Virus record (IMG/VR): IMGVR_UViG_3300047379_000329
Location: 1 to 62,742 of that record
From: a virus
DNA length: 62,742 nt
Strand: one strand, 5' to 3'
Part shown: positions 3,358-12,762 of the stretch, in pieces
Numbering within the stretch: position 1 is the stretch's first letter
Layout: the number at the start of each line of letters is the position of its first letter
The notes under the pieces: generated by a model
The model's input: only the letters and a program-made list of their open reading frames with translations
Told to the model about the DNA's origin: nothing
Database searches by the model: none
Program-made: the position numbers and the translations under genes

Positions 3358-3999
3358 TTATTTTAACTTATTTTTTAGAGTATAAGAGGAGTCTTGAAGG
3401 ACTTTGGTTCTGTCGTCAATTAAAAGGTTGTCGGGATTTGAGGTAAACCACATTGCAATAGTATGTCTAGAACACCTTCTTACAGCATTTACACCATGGT
3501 AATGGTATATACCTTGGAAAAGAATGCCCTCACAAGCACTAGGAGAGTGTGTATAACCATGTTCGGGAAAGTATGTCTCTCCATCTCCATAATTATCGTT
3601 AAGGGTTAAGATAAGAGTCCACTCTCTACTGGGTTGTTGGTCTAGATTTTCGTCTTCTATTTCCCATCTAGAATAAGTGTCTAAGTGTGGTTCTTGAGTA
3701 CCACCTATTGGCCACTCATTAATTGATGTCATTTCGGGATAGACTATTTGTGAGTTTTCTTTATAGATTTCTGCAACACACTGATAACCTATTCTTCTGA
3801 ATATATCTCGAACCCACTGAGTATGGATATGGACTATATCTAATCCAAAGTAATCAGAACCGTCTCCAATACTTCTAAGATGTTTGTGCGTTTTGTGGAA
3901 GTGTATCAGTTCCTTTGCTTGTTGTGGATTCACTAGATTCGGAATCTTTATCAGATTGAAGGGTCTTGATGTACTCTGCAATTGCTCTTCGTTTTTCAT
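3358..3999 (-). CDS. 2-oxoglutarate/Fe(II)-dependent oxygenase (prolyl-hydroxylase type)
   Basis: This 213-aa protein has the double-stranded beta-helix metal triad: HLD at residues 104-106, then HYHGVN with the distal His near 168 and the 2OG-binding Arg near 178. The family uses O2 and 2-oxoglutarate to hydroxylate proteins, nucleic acids or small molecules; the substrate here is unknown. The first 125 nt overlap, in another frame, the 3' end of the peptide deformylase gene. The N-terminal FNLIKIPNLVNPQQAKELI looks like genuine family sequence, so the overlap appears real. Confidence 0.85.
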   Translation of the reverse strand: MKNEEQLQSTSRPFNLIKIPNLVNPQQAKELIHFHKTHKHLRSIGDGSDYFGLDIVHIHTQWVRDIFRRIGYQCVAEIYKENSQIVYPEMTSINEWPIGGTQEPHLDTYSRWEIEDENLDQQPSREWTLILTLNDNYGDGETYFPEHGYTHSPSACEGILFQGIYHYHGVNAVRRCSRHTIAMWFTSNPDNLLIDDRTKVLQDSSYTLKNKLK

Positions 4000-4501
4000 T
4001 TTCTATTCTTTTCCTTTTTTCTTTAGGACGTGATTTCAATGCACGTTCTAATTTCAATTTAGATGCTCGTTGTAGAAACACTATACCATTTAAATGGTCT
4101 ATTTCATGTTGAGCGCATCTTGCACCAAGACCATCTAATATCAAAGTGTGTTCAGTACCATCACTGTCTTGATATTTCATTTCTATTACTCTTGCTCTTT
4201 TTATCATAAGAAATAAATCGGGAAACGATAAACATCCCTCTTTTTGTAATTCTGTTTCTTGGGATAGTCTTGTTATTTCGGGATTAAAGAAAGTTTTGTT
4301 TCCTGCATCTGCAGTCTTCATAACAAAACATCTAACATCTAATCCAACTTGATTTGCAGATAAACCAATACCACCAAATCTATCCATTGCTTCAGATAAT
4401 AGACTCTCTATTTCCTTTGGGTCTTCTGATGGATTATCAAAATCAAATTCTAAAGGAGGTGTTCTTAATACCTTTGATGCTTCTTCTACTAATGTATACA
4501 T
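3875..4501 (-). CDS. def: Peptide deformylase
   Basis: This 208-aa enzyme carries all three deformylase motifs: GIGLSANQVG (44-53), EGCLSFP (88-94) and QHEIDHLNG (131-139). The Cys and both His that bind metal and the catalytic Glu are present, so it should be active in removing N-formyl groups from nascent proteins. Deformylases are well known as auxiliary genes of marine T4-like phages. The C-terminal 50 residues are a charged, Ser/Thr-rich tail that is unusual for the family and is the part overlapping the downstream oxygenase gene. Its start is coupled to the stop of the 378-aa gene upstream. Confidence 0.96.
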   Translation of the reverse strand: MYTLVEEASKVLRTPPLEFDFDNPSEDPKEIESLLSEAMDRFGGIGLSANQVGLDVRCFVMKTADAGNKTFFNPEITRLSQETELQKEGCLSFPDLFLMIKRARVIEMKYQDSDGTEHTLILDGLGARCAQHEIDHLNGIVFLQRASKLKLERALKSRPKEKRKRIENEKRRAIAEYIKTLQSDKDSESSESTTSKGTDTLPQNAQTS

Positions 4502-5650: not shown

Positions 5651-7365
5651 TATTCTGCAATTCGGGAGAAGTTTTTATGTTTCTCAAACCTAATTACATC
5701 ATTAAACTTATCATACAATGCTTCACCTTTATGTGATATGATGAATGCATTAGTTTTCTCTGTAAGTGTATTCAATAGTTTTAAAAAGTCGTCTGTTCCG
5801 TTAGTGTCAAGTGAAGAGTCGAACACTTCATCGAGAATGAGCAGGTTAGTGTTAACACTATTTTTCATTCTTGCAATAGTTCTCCATGTAAATAGAATAC
5901 TTAAATCTATTCTCATTTTCTCACCTTGTGAAAAGTTATCGTATTTGAACACATCTCTGAATCTTGACTTGATTGTTTCCTCAAAGGATTCATCTAATTC
6001 AAATCCTACAAAGAACTCCAGTGATGCAAGATACTTGTTTATCATATTGTTCATTACTGGAACATACTGTTTAATAATCTTCTGTTTAACACCTTGGTCT
6101 CTCAACAACATTTGTGCTAACTCGTAATAGTGTCCTTGGTCTACAAGTGTTTCTTTTTTAGATAATAGTATCTCTAATTTACTTTCATTCTCTTCTATAG
6201 ATTCATGTGTGTTAGAGGGGACGTTTGCTTCAATCTGTAGGTCTTCTATTTCTTTGTTAAGTTTCTTTATGTATTTCTGATTAGAAATAATTTCAGTTTG
6301 GATAACTGCAATTTGTTTTTGAAGAGATTCTATTCCTTGTTGGACTTTTCCGATTTCGTCCATTCTGTTGGAGGAGTCTGTGATTGTGTCTTCAATTTGT
6401 TGGAGTGCAGATACCAGTTCGTCCTTCTTCTTCTGTTTCTCTGCGATGTGAGTTTTTTTGTGTTCCTCATCTAATCCTTGTTTACATGTTGGACATTCAT
6501 CATTCTTTTCATAGAATGATATTTCTTTTTCTACTTTTCGTCTGTTCTCTTCCATCTTCTTTTCAAACTCTAGAGCTTGTTTCAGACGGTCTCCTTGTGG
6601 GTCTCTATCTGAAATTGAAGATGTTTTTTCTTTAATGGTTTCAGTTTTTAATTCAACCTTTTCCATAAGTGAGTCGACATTATCTTCAGTTTCTTTTATA
6701 GTAGACTGAAACTTACCTATCTTCTCATCACGATTTACACGAAGTGCAGTCAACTGTTCATTCAAACCATTGATTCTCTCTTCCATAATATTTATTTCAT
6801 GTTCATTCTCACGTTGCTCTACAACGTAATTACTGACTCTTTTTCTTAGGATGTCACTCATAGTCGAAAAGATAGATATGTCTAATAGGTCTTCGATAAG
6901 ACCTCTTCTATCCTTTGCTTTCAATTGCATGAATGGGACAAAGTTTGCAGAACCTAAGATTGCAACTTGGGTGAATGAACGATAAGACATCTTAAGAATA
7001 TTCTTTTCTAATTGTTCTTGGTAATCCTTTACTGTTGCATCTTGGTTGACGAATACTCCATCAACATGTATCTCAAACTTATTAGGTTTTGCACCTCGCA
7101 TAACCTTATACTCTTTTTTACCTATGTTAAATTCAACCTCTACTATAAGTCCTTTCTCGTTAACACTATTAATAAGAAGTTCTTTCTTTAAGTTTCTGAA
7201 CCCACGACCATAAAGACCAAAACACAATGCATCTAAAAGTGTAGATTTACCTGCACCATTCTCTCCAAGTATTAGGGTTGTTTGGTGTGCATTTAGGTCT
7301 ATCTCTGTAAAATTATTTCCCGATGAAAGTAAATTTTTCCATCTTACCTTTTTAAAATTTATCAT
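5650..7365 (-). CDS. gp46: Recombination endonuclease subunit gp46 (SbcC/Rad50-like ATPase)
   Basis: A 571-aa SMC-type ATPase. Walker A GENGAGKST is at residues 34-42. A coiled-coil middle follows with a zinc-hook CPTC near 291. The ABC signature FSQGEK is near 475 and Walker B LLILDEVFD near 509. With gp47 it forms the nuclease that resects DNA ends for T4-type recombination-dependent replication. Its start overlaps the end of gp47 by 4 nt, and the gene order 55-47-46 is that of related marine phages. Confidence 0.97.
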   Translation of the reverse strand: MINFKKVRWKNLLSSGNNFTEIDLNAHQTTLILGENGAGKSTLLDALCFGLYGRGFRNLKKELLINSVNEKGLIVEVEFNIGKKEYKVMRGAKPNKFEIHVDGVFVNQDATVKDYQEQLEKNILKMSYRSFTQVAILGSANFVPFMQLKAKDRRGLIEDLLDISIFSTMSDILRKRVSNYVVEQRENEHEINIMEERINGLNEQLTALRVNRDEKIGKFQSTIKETEDNVDSLMEKVELKTETIKEKTSSISDRDPQGDRLKQALEFEKKMEENRRKVEKEISFYEKNDECPTCKQGLDEEHKKTHIAEKQKKKDELVSALQQIEDTITDSSNRMDEIGKVQQGIESLQKQIAVIQTEIISNQKYIKKLNKEIEDLQIEANVPSNTHESIEENESKLEILLSKKETLVDQGHYYELAQMLLRDQGVKQKIIKQYVPVMNNMINKYLASLEFFVGFELDESFEETIKSRFRDVFKYDNFSQGEKMRIDLSILFTWRTIARMKNSVNTNLLILDEVFDSSLDTNGTDDFLKLLNTLTEKTNAFIISHKGEALYDKFNDVIRFEKHKNFSRIAE

Positions 7366-8429: not shown

Positions 8430-8993
8430 TTATTCCTCTTCTTCTGAGAAGTTAGTTTCTAAATTATTCTTTGTTGATACTCTTTTAGATTTACGAGGTT
8501 TATACTCGACATGATTCATATTTTCGTTCATCCACTCAACATTTGTGTTAATAAGGGTTGGGTCATGAATGCCATCTATAGTTGTAAATGAATCTAATGT
8601 TAATGCAGATTCTATTGTTGACTTTTGTTTGATGTAAACCTGTTTCTTTTCTTTTTGTATTCTTCTTAAGAAAGCATAGTAACAGATTTGGGTAACATAT
8701 GCGAATGCATTGTTGGACTTCTCTACTTTAAAGTTCCCAATGTATTGAATACAGTTTTCAATTGCATCACAAATCATTTCATCTCTATATGTGTAGTTGA
8801 TGAAGTTTGGTCTTGTAGATAGACGGGTTGCAATTTTATAAATGCACTCTCCTATGTACTCTGACATTTGTGGTGCTTCCTTTCCTTCAGAAAGATTGGA
8901 CTGTATCTGACTTACATAATCTGCAACTGCAGCTGTAAAGTCTTTATTAGATACATAATGAATTGCTTTTTTGGGGTCTTTTTTTGTTGTCAT
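8430..8993 (-). CDS. gp55: Late-transcription sigma factor gp55
   Basis: A 187-aa protein if begun at the internal ATG 8993 (MTTKKDPKKAIHYVSNKDF). Such an N-terminus is typical of marine gp55 proteins, and the length matches T4 gp55 (185 aa). The frame also extends to an ATG at 9026 that would add 11 residues. The region IKIATRLSTRPNFINYTYRDEMI and the following helix resemble the sigma region-2 part that contacts the TATAAATA box. The many TATAAATA-type boxes in this window are its expected targets. A TATAAT hexamer lies exactly 6 nt before the ATG at 8993. Confidence 0.9.
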   Translation of the reverse strand: MTTKKDPKKAIHYVSNKDFTAAVADYVSQIQSNLSEGKEAPQMSEYIGECIYKIATRLSTRPNFINYTYRDEMICDAIENCIQYIGNFKVEKSNNAFAYVTQICYYAFLRRIQKEKKQVYIKQKSTIESALTLDSFTTIDGIHDPTLINTNVEWMNENMNHVEYKPRKSKRVSTKNNLETNFSEEEE

Positions 8994-9026
8994 ACCTCTA
9001 TTATACGGATAATTCTTTAAATTCAT

Positions 9027-9136: not shown

Positions 9137-9262
9137 TTAAGTGTAGGTTATAACTCTACTCTTTGCAGGATTATTAATTGCACGACTCATTCTATCGATA
9201 TCACCAACGGCAAGTTCAAACATGCACCAACCTAAAATTGTATATATTATATAGTGTTTCAC
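9137..9262 (-). CDS. Very small membrane protein of the cytochrome operon (41 aa)
   Basis: A GTG start at 9262 overlaps the TGA stop of the upstream 68-aa gene (GTGA), the classic arrangement for coupled translation. The frame gives 41 residues beginning VKHYIIYTILGWCMFELAVG, a single hydrophobic segment (about 4-19), then a short polar tail. No family is recognisable. Coupling and hydrophobicity support it; size and the GTG start limit confidence. Confidence 0.5.
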   Translation of the reverse strand: MKHYIIYTILGWCMFELAVGDIDRMSRAINNPAKSRVITYT

Positions 9263-9465
9263 AATCTGTCCAATCCTACGTTGATTAAGTAAAAGGACAA
9301 GAGCATAAAACCGAAAACGAGGACTTGCACGACTGACATTATTGCAACTTGTTTCATTGGGTGAACTTCAACAATTTTCTCAATCCAAGATTCATCAGGT
9401 GAAAGGTTTACAACCTGTAGTATTTTCTTTTCAGTATCGGGTTTTGTAAACCAAGGAACGTACAT
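9259..9465 (-). CDS. Small membrane protein of the cytochrome operon (68 aa)
   Basis: A 68-aa protein with a soluble N-terminal part of about 38 residues and one C-terminal membrane helix (about 39-62, rich in V, L, F). Its ATG overlaps the TAA of the cytochrome c gene (TAATG). I know of no homologue. Strict coupling to the cytochrome suggests a membrane partner, for example an anchor or an oxidase-docking subunit; this is inference from context. Confidence 0.78.
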   Translation of the reverse strand: MYVPWFTKPDTEKKILQVVNLSPDESWIEKIVEVHPMKQVAIMSVVQVLVFGFMLLSFYLINVGLDRL

Positions 9466-9908
9466 TACTTTAACTCCACCTCTATAAACTTACCAATCAT
9501 ATTGATATCTGCATCACTCAACATTCCTGCTTGAGCCCACATAGTAGAAGACATATTACCGACTGTCTCTCTATTTTTATATGCATTGAGTTTACTTACA
9601 ATGTAATCTTGTGATTGACCTGCAAGTTTAGGAAAGACTGCCATACCTTGACCTTCTGCACCGTGACAAGCTGCACACCCACTCCATAGACTTCTAATAG
9701 AAGAGAACTCATCTGCATTTGCAAGTGCATTTTTTCTTTGTTGTATTTCTGATGCAGTTCCGTTCAATGCAACATAGTCAACATAACACTGACCAGTGCA
9801 TGAAGTATTACTACTATATCCACTGTATTCTAAGTTTGGATATACTTTTGCAACAAAGAAAGTTGCGATTGCAATACATCCTAATAGAGACATTCCTAAT
9901 TCTTTCAT
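9465..9908 (-). CDS. Membrane-anchored class I c-type cytochrome
   Basis: A 147-aa protein. An N-terminal hydrophobic anchor or uncleaved signal spans about residues 6-24. A linker follows with a possible disulfide pair (C37, C41). The heme-c motif CAACH is at 78-82, and FPKLAGQ plus LSDADI match the c4/c5-type fold, with Met119 or Met123 as candidate sixth ligand. Such proteins are periplasmic electron carriers to terminal oxidases and need the host heme-attachment machinery. A strong AGGAG site precedes the ATG. The gene is the centre of a five-gene coupled operon and is a likely auxiliary metabolic gene acting on host respiration. Confidence 0.92.
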   Translation of the reverse strand: MKELGMSLLGCIAIATFFVAKVYPNLEYSGYSSNTSCTGQCYVDYVALNGTASEIQQRKNALANADEFSSIRSLWSGCAACHGAEGQGMAVFPKLAGQSQDYIVSKLNAYKNRETVGNMSSTMWAQAGMLSDADINMIGKFIEVELK

Positions 9909-9909
9909 A

Positions 9910-9984
9910 TTATACTCCTGTAAGTGAAAGTACTGATAAACAAAAAATAAACGTAAGTGTACCGATTTCTAATTTATCTCTCAT
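9910..9984 (-). CDS. Micro-ORF membrane peptide (24 aa)
   Basis: The ATG at 9984 overlaps the TGA of the 57-aa gene (ATGA). It encodes MRDKLEIGTLTFIFCLSVLS followed by LTGV and stops 1 nt before the cytochrome ATG. Residues 6-22 are hydrophobic enough for a membrane helix. The cytochrome's ribosome-binding site lies inside this frame, so its translation may also serve to open that site. Real expression is plausible but unproven. Confidence 0.5.
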   Translation of the reverse strand: MRDKLEIGTLTFIFCLSVLSLTGV

Positions 9985-10154
9985 AGGGATGCCCTCGATA
10001 GATACATTATCATAAATGGTAGTAAGAACGGAAGAGTCATCAGCACTAGAAATTCGATAGTGTCAACCAGTTTTCTCTTTACAGGTCTAACTTGATGGTT
10101 GACTTCTCTAGCTTTTCGCACCATGCTCTTCGCAAAAAAAGTTGCTGTGGTCAT
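9981..10154 (-). CDS. Small membrane protein of the cytochrome operon (57 aa)
   Basis: A 57-aa frame preceded by TTTAGGAAAACC, a reasonable ribosome-binding site. The N-terminal 30 residues are rich in Arg/Lys, then one strongly hydrophobic helix (about 32-52), so the N-terminus should face the cytoplasm. Size and single-helix layout recall small accessory subunits of terminal oxidases (CcoQ-like), but I see no sequence proof. It is the first gene of the operon. Confidence 0.68.
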   Translation of the reverse strand: MTTATFFAKSMVRKAREVNHQVRPVKRKLVDTIEFLVLMTLPFLLPFMIMYLSRASL

Positions 10155-10239: not shown

Positions 10240-10686
10240 CTAATGAATTTTCTTAGGGTCGGATGGTGCAAGAAGAGAATCTTCTTCTAAGAACTGTTCC
10301 TCTTCCAGTTTATCTAATTCTTCATCTGACATTCCTGCAACTAATTTGTTGATGGTGTCTTTGATGTATTCCATTTTAGGCATCTTGTTGGTTAAAGGGA
10401 TAGATTCAGTTTCTACCATAGTTAACCACTTTGAGGATGCTTCATCATAAAAGGGGATGTATTGTTCACTCATTTTACTTCTATGAAGAACATGTTCAGT
10501 GTCTATAGAAATCATTGAGTCTGAACTTACAGGTGTGTAAGGTATAAAGGTTGCAAGAGTATTAGTTAAATCTAATCTTGAAAGTTGACATACCATAGGT
10601 GCAGTAATCCTTATAGTATCTCCTACTTCTTCTACCATACCACAAATCTCAGCACCCGTTATTATTTTTATTACTTCGTATCTCAT
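10240..10686 (-). CDS. Conserved marine-phage protein with Sm-like N-terminal half
   Basis: A 148-aa protein starting MRYEVIKIITGAEICGMVEE. The pattern of short strands ending in PMVCQ and later FIPYTP resembles Sm/LSm-like small beta-barrels of T4-like marine phages; the fold call is inference. The C-terminus is acidic and probably disordered (EELDKLEEEQFLEED). It overlaps the end of uvsW by 4 nt. If truly Sm-like it could bind RNA. Confidence 0.85.
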   Translation of the reverse strand: MRYEVIKIITGAEICGMVEEVGDTIRITAPMVCQLSRLDLTNTLATFIPYTPVSSDSMISIDTEHVLHRSKMSEQYIPFYDEASSKWLTMVETESIPLTNKMPKMEYIKDTINKLVAGMSDEELDKLEEEQFLEEDSLLAPSDPKKIH

Positions 10687-12095
10687 AAGTTGAATTGTTT
10701 TATTTCGTATTTAAATCCTTCTTCGTTATAGATATTTATTCTTTCTTTAAGGTGGTTAAGTGTATAGTTATTACATTGTAAATCATCTGCAATGTCAAAC
10801 AGTCTCATTTCTGTTTTGCCTTCAGTCTTACGAAGTCCTCTACCAATTGATTGTAGATTTCTAATTCTTGATTTGGATGGTGATGCAAAAACCACATTAT
10901 CAATTTTCTTAATGTTCACTCCAGTTGAGAATGTACCATAAGATGCAAGTATAACATTGTCTTCTGCTTTCTCTACGATTGTTCTGACTTCTTCTCTATC
11001 AGTTACATCAGTTCCACCGTAAACATAGTGTAGTTTATCATCAAGTCTCTTAAACATTTTACCATGTAAGACTGCACCATGTTTCTCTACATATTGAAAC
11101 AAGACTAATGTATTTCCTTTAAGTGAATATACAAGATTACAAATAAATTCGTTCCTACTATCATTGCCGACCAAGTAGTCCATCTCTTCTTGGTAGTTTC
11201 CTTTCTTCTGTTTAGTATGACGAAGTATGATACAATCAATTGAAAGATTTGCAATAGTTCCATCTTCCATTAAATCTTTAGTTGATATAACTTTTTTGAC
11301 TGGGCCGAACAAACCTTCGAGTTGTAATCTATGAACCTCTGAACCATCCAGTGTTCCAGTAGTTCCAAATCGTATTGCAGTTTTTTTCATCTTCTCTAAG
11401 ATACCTTTGAGAACATCTGCTTTGAATAAATGTGCTTCGTCACCGACAACCATATCAAAAGAACTTAACACCTCCTTTGGTGCTTTTGCGAATGATTGCC
11501 ATGTGGTGATTGTTATTGGTGCATCAAACACTTCTTGTCCATGATATATCTTACAGACTCTTTCCTTATATCCATACTCTTCAAAATCTTTTGTCATTTG
11601 TTCTACTAGTGATGTAGTAGGAACTATGATAACCGTTTTAACATCATAGTATCTTGCAAGTAAGTATATAATCAATGACTTACCACTTGCAGTTGGAGAT
11701 AGTAATAGTTGTCTCCCATATTGAACTGCAGTATTGAATGCATCTATCTGATAATCTCTTGGAGGAAAAGGTAAGTCTAAATCTGCTAACCATGACTGAC
11801 TACACTTCTCTCTATGTTTAACACCAATAACATCTTCAATCCCTTCAAACTCATATCCTCGTTCTTTACAGAACTCATCTATGTAAGGAAGTAATCCTAT
11901 GTATATCTTTCTTGTTTTGATTGAGAATAAACGAACCTTACCATCCCACCATTTGTTTCTGTAGGAAGGCATAAACTTTGCATTTGGAACTGTAAAGGAA
12001 AAGAAGTCAAACAAGTCTTTTGCAAGACCATCATCGGGACACTCTACTTTTAAAAAAACTTCGTCTATCTTAGAGACACGAACTGTATTAGACAT
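10683..12095 (-). CDS. uvsW: Recombination DNA-RNA helicase UvsW
   Basis: A superfamily-2 helicase of 470 aa counted from ATG 12095. The open frame extends 8 codons further to a TTG, but MSNTVRVSKIDEV is the natural start. Motifs: Walker A SPTASGKS (133-140), DEAH (219-222), motif III-like FGTTGT, and motif VI QSIGRGLRKT near 423. UvsW unwinds branched DNA and R-loops and shuts off origin-dependent replication in T4. It overlaps the upstream oxygenase by 8 nt. Confidence 0.95.
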   Translation of the reverse strand: MSNTVRVSKIDEVFLKVECPDDGLAKDLFDFFSFTVPNAKFMPSYRNKWWDGKVRLFSIKTRKIYIGLLPYIDEFCKERGYEFEGIEDVIGVKHREKCSQSWLADLDLPFPPRDYQIDAFNTAVQYGRQLLLSPTASGKSLIIYLLARYYDVKTVIIVPTTSLVEQMTKDFEEYGYKERVCKIYHGQEVFDAPITITTWQSFAKAPKEVLSSFDMVVGDEAHLFKADVLKGILEKMKKTAIRFGTTGTLDGSEVHRLQLEGLFGPVKKVISTKDLMEDGTIANLSIDCIILRHTKQKKGNYQEEMDYLVGNDSRNEFICNLVYSLKGNTLVLFQYVEKHGAVLHGKMFKRLDDKLHYVYGGTDVTDREEVRTIVEKAEDNVILASYGTFSTGVNIKKIDNVVFASPSKSRIRNLQSIGRGLRKTEGKTEMRLFDIADDLQCNNYTLNHLKERINIYNEEGFKYEIKQFNL

Positions 12096-12762
12096 AAGGT
12101 TGACCGTTAAACCACACAACTAGTGATTTTCTTGTACCTCTTAAAACTGGTGTTACTTGATGATAAACAAACGAAGGAAATACCACAACACTTCCTTTTG
12201 CCTTTGCAGAAAATGGAACGGTTCTTATAGATTGATTAATGTCTATGCTAGTATCTTTCTCTGTAATTTTATCTAACTGTCGGTGAGGTTCTAACCATTG
12301 AAAATGCCCACCCTCATAATCATCGGGGTCTGATAATTGTATAGTCATACTTAACTTTCTTATAACTCCATTTGGTAATGGTTCTGGCCCTGCATCAGTA
12401 TGCCATGTATAGAAGTCCCCTTTCTTCTTATTAGGTTGTGCATCATAAACTGTATACTGAGGTGGTTCATTCTCTGTGATTAAATCAGTCCATCCACTTT
12501 CATCACATGCAAGATACAATGCTTCATACATCTTATCTATAAGTTCTTGTGGCATTTCGTGTCCACCAAACCATTTTACTCTCGAACTTCTAATGTCCTC
12601 ATTGAAATCACCTTTTAGACCACCATCTCCATCGGGGTCTTGTTGTCCCATTCCAATCTCTGCATCCATGAAATCAATCTTATTTGCAGTTTTATGAAAA
12701 AGTTCTACTTCTTTGTCATTGAAAAAGGATGGTGCATTCCAAATATAATTCTTTAGTATCAT
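12088..12762 (-). CDS. 2-oxoglutarate/Fe(II) oxygenase (PKHD-type hydroxylase)
   Basis: A 224-aa protein with HTD at residues 121-123, distal His201 in FVYHQVTPV and Arg211 in GTRKSLVVWF: the complete iron and 2OG set of PKHD-type hydroxylases. Similar genes sit beside uvsW/uvsY in marine T4-like phages. The substrate is unknown. It lies directly between uvsY and uvsW, so it is expressed with recombination genes and may act on nucleic acid or on a phage protein. Confidence 0.92.
   Translation of the reverse strand: MILKNYIWNAPSFFNDKEVELFHKTANKIDFMDAEIGMGQQDPDGDGGLKGDFNEDIRSSRVKWFGGHEMPQELIDKMYEALYLACDESGWTDLITENEPPQYTVYDAQPNKKKGDFYTWHTDAGPEPLPNGVIRKLSMTIQLSDPDDYEGGHFQWLEPHRQLDKITEKDTSIDINQSIRTVPFSAKAKGSVVVFPSFVYHQVTPVLRGTRKSLVVWFNGQPYV

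Follow-up and report, generated by a model that had tools for sequence, protein, structure and literature searches.

A polymorphic class I c-type cytochrome gene in T4-like marine myoviruses and its possible role in host respiration

The stretch of DNA analysed here (the window, 62,742 nucleotides) is an IMG/VR record of a T4-like myovirus, recognised by its UvsW, gp55-like late sigma factor, gp47-like nuclease subunit and tail sheath, and it carries a member of a family of phage class I c-type cytochromes. We consider it probable (roughly 0.6) that this gene is a cassette that supplies the infected cell with an exported electron carrier and so sustains host respiration during infection, and that the four small membrane-protein genes around it are pre-existing and independent rather than dedicated cytochrome partners.

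The first-pass annotation of this region, made from the letters alone, described five linked minus-strand frames, and we find them exactly as described: in the order p57, p24, cytochrome, p68 and p41 (Table 1), they are joined by the junctions ATGA, TAATATG, TAATG and GTGA. A purine-rich, Shine-Dalgarno-like stretch precedes each of the five starts (AGGA, GAGG, AGGAG, GAGGTGGAG and AGGA), and each product has a single hydrophobic segment, as had also been proposed, with best 19-residue Kyte-Doolittle means of 2.08 (p57), 1.72 (p24), 2.00 (cytochrome), 2.39 (p68) and 1.41 (p41, where the segment is weak and N-terminal). Such close spacing is nothing unusual here: of 52 larger ORFs next to one another in this genome, 10 overlap by exactly 1 or 4 nt. 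A scan for promoters and terminators gave no excess over shuffled sequence. Since dozens of contigs among the matches listed have homologues of the five genes in this order, and since all five are under purifying selection (median pairwise dN/dS 0.22-0.41), the frames are more than chance; on this comparative evidence all five are real, conserved genes. In Mosig (SAR11) and C48C1, the nearest phages for which complete records exist, uvsW, p148 and gp55 follow one another as in the window, and the Pelagibacter phage Mosig has a gene annotated 'methylamine utilization' at the same place as p148; the annotation of both phages lists neither a cytochrome nor the small genes between p148 and gp55. 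Elsewhere in the window, downstream of the gp46/47-like genes, lie a protein matching 2OG-Fe(II) oxygenase / endonuclease V phrogs (3358-3999) and a peptide deformylase (phrog_2890; 3875-4501).

Table 1. Genes of the uvsW-gp55 interval and its flanks, with positions in the window
Gene	Description	Position	Strand	Evidence
uvsW	UvsW-like helicase; outer upstream flank	10683..12119	-	phrog_16, E 2e-96; Pfam UvsW_N
p148	phrog_471-like (annotated 'methylamine utilization'); conserved upstream flank of the interval	10240..10686	-	
p57	57 aa, small single-TM protein	9981..10154	-	dN/dS 0.41
p24	24 aa, single-TM protein	9910..9984	-	dN/dS 0.37
cytochrome	147 aa, class I c-type cytochrome	9465..9908	-	PF00034, 36.1 bits; dN/dS 0.24
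p68	68 aa, small C-terminal-TM protein, conserved HPM(K/R)Q motif	9259..9465	-	dN/dS 0.22
p41	41 aa, GTG start; last gene before gp55	9137..9262	-	dN/dS 0.34
gp55	T4 gp55-like late sigma factor; conserved downstream flank	8430..9026	-	phrog_234, E 4e-55

The assignment of the 147-aa protein to the class I c-type cytochromes, already made in the first-pass annotation, holds up well. With 36.1 bits it exceeds the Pfam Cytochrom_C (PF00034) cut-off of 21.3 bits, and the same profile matches diverse members of the family in 35 cases out of 35 (E ≤ 1e-3). The heme motif C78xxC81H82 is invariant in 103 of 103 sequences, as is M123, which aligns with a Met of c554 in the region before LSD and is likely the distal axial ligand; with these invariant ligands the protein falls within a heme-binding family. 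The AlphaFold2 model (mean pLDDT 77.7) has as its best Foldseek matches the small class I cytochromes 8yts, c554 (2zzs) and c552 (1cno), and the sequence search agrees. Judged by profile score and ligand conservation, then, the family is one of genuine class I c-type cytochromes, and the one CxxCH per protein gives it a mono-heme architecture. Three other identities were considered and rejected: cytochrome c4, which requires two fused heme domains where the phage protein has a single CxxCH; CcoP, subunit III of the cbb3 oxidase (TIGR00782, 19.2 against 179.95 bits; PF13442, 24.5 against 27 bits); and soxD, which has been reported from phage contigs of an oil seep and a freshwater sediment (n=2; PMC8190135). 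N-terminal to the heme domain, and outside the part of the protein that cellular cytochromes match, the family carries an extra cysteine pair, C37-x3-C41 (CxxxC), likewise invariant in 103/103.

The N-terminus bears on where the protein would act. In the window it begins with an anchor (approximately residues 4-22), followed by a short ectodomain with the CxxxC pair and then by the heme domain; most members have such an uncleaved-looking, anchor-like segment, while 10 of 102 carry in its place a signal-peptide-like N-terminus ending in AxA. This swapped N-terminus (AFA or AVA, then Y), on a protein otherwise conserved, is seen at L052, L057, L059, L060, L187, L201, L218, L238, L250 and L251. 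Maturation of bacterial c-type cytochromes takes place in the periplasm. Because the N-termini are anchor-like in most members and signal-peptide-like in some others, we infer that the cytochrome is exported and that its heme domain is periplasmic in both forms.

The genomic position of the gene is far from fixed. Among 107 distinct cytochrome proteins, taken from the best 80 contigs per scan, 27 lie at the uvsW-gp55 site and 50 near nrdB; a further 8 stand beside glutaredoxin only, and 22 are elsewhere or without a site call. In the nrdB arrangement, nrdB is followed by p68 or a different small membrane-protein gene, then by the cytochrome and glutaredoxin, often with overlapping stop and start codons, and versions without the cytochrome (nrdB-p68-glutaredoxin) exist. 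In a third type of site the cytochrome follows a cytidylyltransferase-like gene and precedes genes for ferritin, a class V aminotransferase (IscS-like; Aminotran_5) and IscU/NifU_N; an iron/redox block of this kind, with cytidylyltransferase-like, ferritin-like, IscS-like and IscU-like genes around the cytochrome, is found at L028:4225-7614 and in part at L149 and L185. Taken over all sites other than that of the window, the redox and iron neighbours are nrdB, glutaredoxin, ferritin, cysteine desulfurase (Aminotran_5), IscU/NifU_N and AhpC. An empty version of the uvsW-gp55 site is seen in the relative L223, which matches the window at 92.8% identity from uvsW to p57 and at 91.6% from p68 to gp55. 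With the cytochrome missing, it is the stop codon of p24 that shares the TAATG with the p68 start, just as the stop codon of the cytochrome gene does in the window. Mapped onto a tree of 102 cytochromes, the two main sites must have been exchanged for each other at least 7 times, although the tree rests on few alignment columns and its individual forks are uncertain. Because of the empty site in L223, the nrdB-glutaredoxin and ferritin-IscS-IscU sites and these switches, the comparison of gene neighbourhoods identifies the cytochrome as a polymorphic auxiliary-gene cassette set among pre-existing small membrane-protein genes. At L038:2466-2909 and at equivalent positions of other nrdB-site loci, nrdB-cyt-glutaredoxin is closely followed by a gene for a SegE-type GIY-YIG endonuclease, a candidate driver of cassette exchange there. 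In L200, a gene directly after the cytochrome cassette (6434-6694) encodes a small exported-looking protein with EF-hand-like calcium motifs.

What might such a cassette do? In the reading that we favour, a T4-like marine myovirus would carry an auxiliary gene for an exported, usually anchored, mono-heme class I c-type cytochrome, which the host would bring to the periplasmic face through Sec and furnish with heme through its cytochrome c maturation system. The protein would then carry electrons from a quinol-oxidising complex to a terminal oxidase of the host. With host synthesis shutting down, it would add to the host's own carrier or take its place, and continued respiration could then provide proton-motive force and ATP for the synthesis of dNTPs, protein and phage. 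The cassette would fit between the stop codon of one gene and the start codon of the next in operons already present, in the window into the small membrane-protein cluster between uvsW-p148 and gp55, and elsewhere beside ribonucleotide reductase and glutaredoxin or before ferritin-IscS-IscU genes. A respiration-supporting use is probable because near-identical viruses differ in whether they have the gene, and because it occupies several positions in their genomes. The role of electron shuttle, more specifically, is suggested by the usual role of the family, by its anchored and secreted forms, by neighbours concerned with nucleotide reduction and with iron and redox chemistry, and by the absence of COX1 and psbA from the large relatives searched; since none of the 11 records searched has a COX1, the oxidase would be the host's own. 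The earlier proposal of a phage-supplied electron carrier thus remains plausible for a protein with an N-terminal anchor that is widespread and under purifying selection.

Several observations temper this picture. The ribonucleotide reductase, glutaredoxin and Isc neighbours at the other sites are cytosolic, so that co-location may reflect the timing of expression rather than a shared pathway. The net charge of the heme domain is slightly negative (median -3) and thus gives no clear oxidase docking signature, and since the N-terminal CxxxC segment has no characterised counterpart, the cytochrome may have a different partner. One could also speculate that it diverts electrons instead, acting as a decoy on the host bc1 complex or oxidase or feeding an acceptor of the phage's choosing, for instance in peroxide detoxification or in an iron/redox balance tied to the ferritin and Fe-S genes. 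The presence of ferritin, IscS, IscU, AhpC and glutaredoxin genes nearby would suit such a role, as would a conserved cysteine pair in a region without a match in cellular cytochromes; however, every residue that a functioning class I cytochrome needs is invariant, the heme domain closely resembles those of the ordinary small c554 and c552, and we consider diversion unlikely.

The relation of the cytochrome to its small neighbours is clarified by relatives that lack it. Among the matches listed, the complete order uvsW-p148-p57-p24-p68-p41-gp55 occurs without the cytochrome in L216, L221, L222, L223, L229 and L231-L233. The gene order of the window does recur in dozens of contigs, but many relatives have the order without the cytochrome, and with such empty sites the small frames are not conserved together with it. 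A 120-kb relative has p57, p24 and p68 and no cytochrome anywhere on the contig. In a 114-kb relative, the uvsW-gp55 interval contains p57, p24 and a p68-like gene, and the cytochrome lies elsewhere, between nrdB and glutaredoxin. Both p57 and p24 are conserved in the uvsW-gp55 interval whether the cytochrome is present or not. A profile scan of IMG/VR for p68 gave 510 contigs, and in the neighbourhoods of the best 80 per scan p68 is found at uvsW-gp55 or nrdB-glutaredoxin, adjoining the cytochrome or not; in roughly half of cases it does adjoin it, at both main sites and on either side. Some relatives without a typical p68 encode, near gp55 or p24, a small TM protein that resembles it but has diverged (L285, at G006:C1:129500-133500; L286; L210). 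Within the clade p68 may belong to the core genes, with a single copy in each genome.

As the only small gene found repeatedly beside the cytochrome at more than one site, p68 could be functionally tied to it. In an extended form of this idea, the phage-specific exported lineage with its CxxxC docking module would be a mobile respiratory module, re-installed beside p68 and beside ribonucleotide reductase/glutaredoxin or Fe-S genes, and rerouting host respiratory electrons with p68 as its membrane partner; we think this rather improbable. A still stronger coupling had been suggested by the first-pass annotation, in which the five genes were built as one functional unit and the small membrane proteins acted with the cytochrome as subunits or assembly factors on a terminal oxidase. 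The five are indeed contiguous, tightly coupled and all conserved in the window, and p68 directly adjoins the cytochrome at the nrdB site too, on either side. However, because close, near-identical relatives have all four small genes without the cytochrome (p57, p24 and p68 likewise on the 120-kb contig), the five genes are, on this comparison, not a conserved unit; p68 also stands without the cytochrome at nrdB-glutaredoxin, and the cytochrome does without p57, p24 and p41 at other sites and without p68 in 26 of the 50 distinct nrdB-site proteins. Searches of Pfam, PHROGs and NCBIfam gave p57, p24, p68 and p41 no significant match to oxidases, nor did the p68 profile match the PDB. Dedicated oxidase-subunit roles are thus not supported by the gene comparisons, and we regard the single-unit explanation as decidedly unlikely.

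Relatives of the cytochrome are widespread: a profile scan of IMG/VR found 484 contigs encoding them, of which the best 80 per scan were examined in detail. Among INPHARED phages there was no match to the cytochrome (E ≤ 0.01), none to a divergent member (E ≤ 1) and none to p68 or p57 (E ≤ 1). The closest plasmid matches are approximately 30-45% identical and cover the heme domain only. Scanning bacterial assemblies with two peptide patterns, which leaves room for distant cellular relatives, returned four, all in a virus-type nrdB-cyt-glutaredoxin context inside MAGs; because of this neighbourhood we rejected a cellular origin for them, and they are most likely phage contigs binned with bacteria. 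The MAGs that hold these apparent phage contigs (L082, L083, L084, L085) bear the names of Synechococcus CPC35, Planctomycetaceae TMED10 and a Sphingobacteriales bacterium. As for the host, the TerL of the window is nearest to phage C48C1 and its portal to OM43/SAR11 phages, both at approximately 55%, which is too distant to name one and leaves SAR11 unproven. A standard cyanophage is unlikely, since psbA (PF00124) had no match in 8 large related contigs, which may be incomplete. Finally, that a host cytochrome was picked up to little benefit and reshuffled by homing endonucleases and recombination would fit its presence/absence polymorphism, its site hopping and the SegE-type gene beside the nrdB site, but is very unlikely for a gene with a dN/dS of approximately 0.24 across 100 sequences and fully conserved heme ligands that is present in several hundred contigs.

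The takeover of electron transport by phages is well documented where the host is photosynthetic and hardly so where it lives by respiration. Now that a strongly conserved, phage-specific cytochrome c family is seen in several hundred contigs of marine viruses, whether phages of ocean heterotrophs maintain host respiration becomes directly testable, and near-identical genomes with and without the gene offer a natural presence/absence comparison. The case also illustrates that a tightly coupled row of phage genes need not be a functional unit.

Among known proteins, Vibrio parahaemolyticus c554 (2zzs), Pseudomonas nautica c552 (1cno) and Thioalkalivibrio c546/556 (8yts) resemble the phage protein in heme-domain sequence, fold, CxxCH and Met; compared with such small soluble class I cytochromes, the phage protein adds, in 103 of 103 members, an anchor- or signal-like N-terminus and a segment of approximately 45 residues with the CxxxC pair. 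Cytochrome c4 and the cbb3 subunit CcoP have a related heme domain, and chains of the Pseudomonas bc1-cbb3 supercomplex (8smr, 8snh), c4 included, are among the matches; both are diheme proteins, whereas the phage protein has one CxxCH. In viruses, besides soxD, a cbb3 subunit I has been reported from a virome (PMC3474794) and ccoP from soil phages, in a table (PMC12713726). These are also respiratory electron-transfer genes, but they concern few sequences and different proteins and settings, none of them a T4-like marine family with this architecture. One paper describes IscU and glutaredoxin genes in genomes of T4-like viruses from the ocean, and its main text does not mention a cytochrome (PMC5332604). 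Our literature search, which excluded most subscription journals and preprints and is thus weak evidence, found no c-type cytochrome family in T4-like marine phages. Phage-supplied redox genes are likewise known from cyanophages, as plastocyanin (petE), PTOX and ferredoxin, and we propose the phage cytochrome as a counterpart, in heterotrophs, of the first two; the cyanophage proteins are copper, di-iron or Fe-S proteins, whereas here the carrier is a heme c protein and the 8 large contigs are psbA-less. The cyanophage redox carriers are thought to keep electrons flowing to oxidases and to support nucleotide synthesis (PMC10452541, PMC5082946), and in cyanophage P-HM2 electron-transfer genes are co-expressed with nrdA/nrdB, with oxidases as electron sinks (PMC5082946). 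This last model is the closest precedent for the role that we propose.
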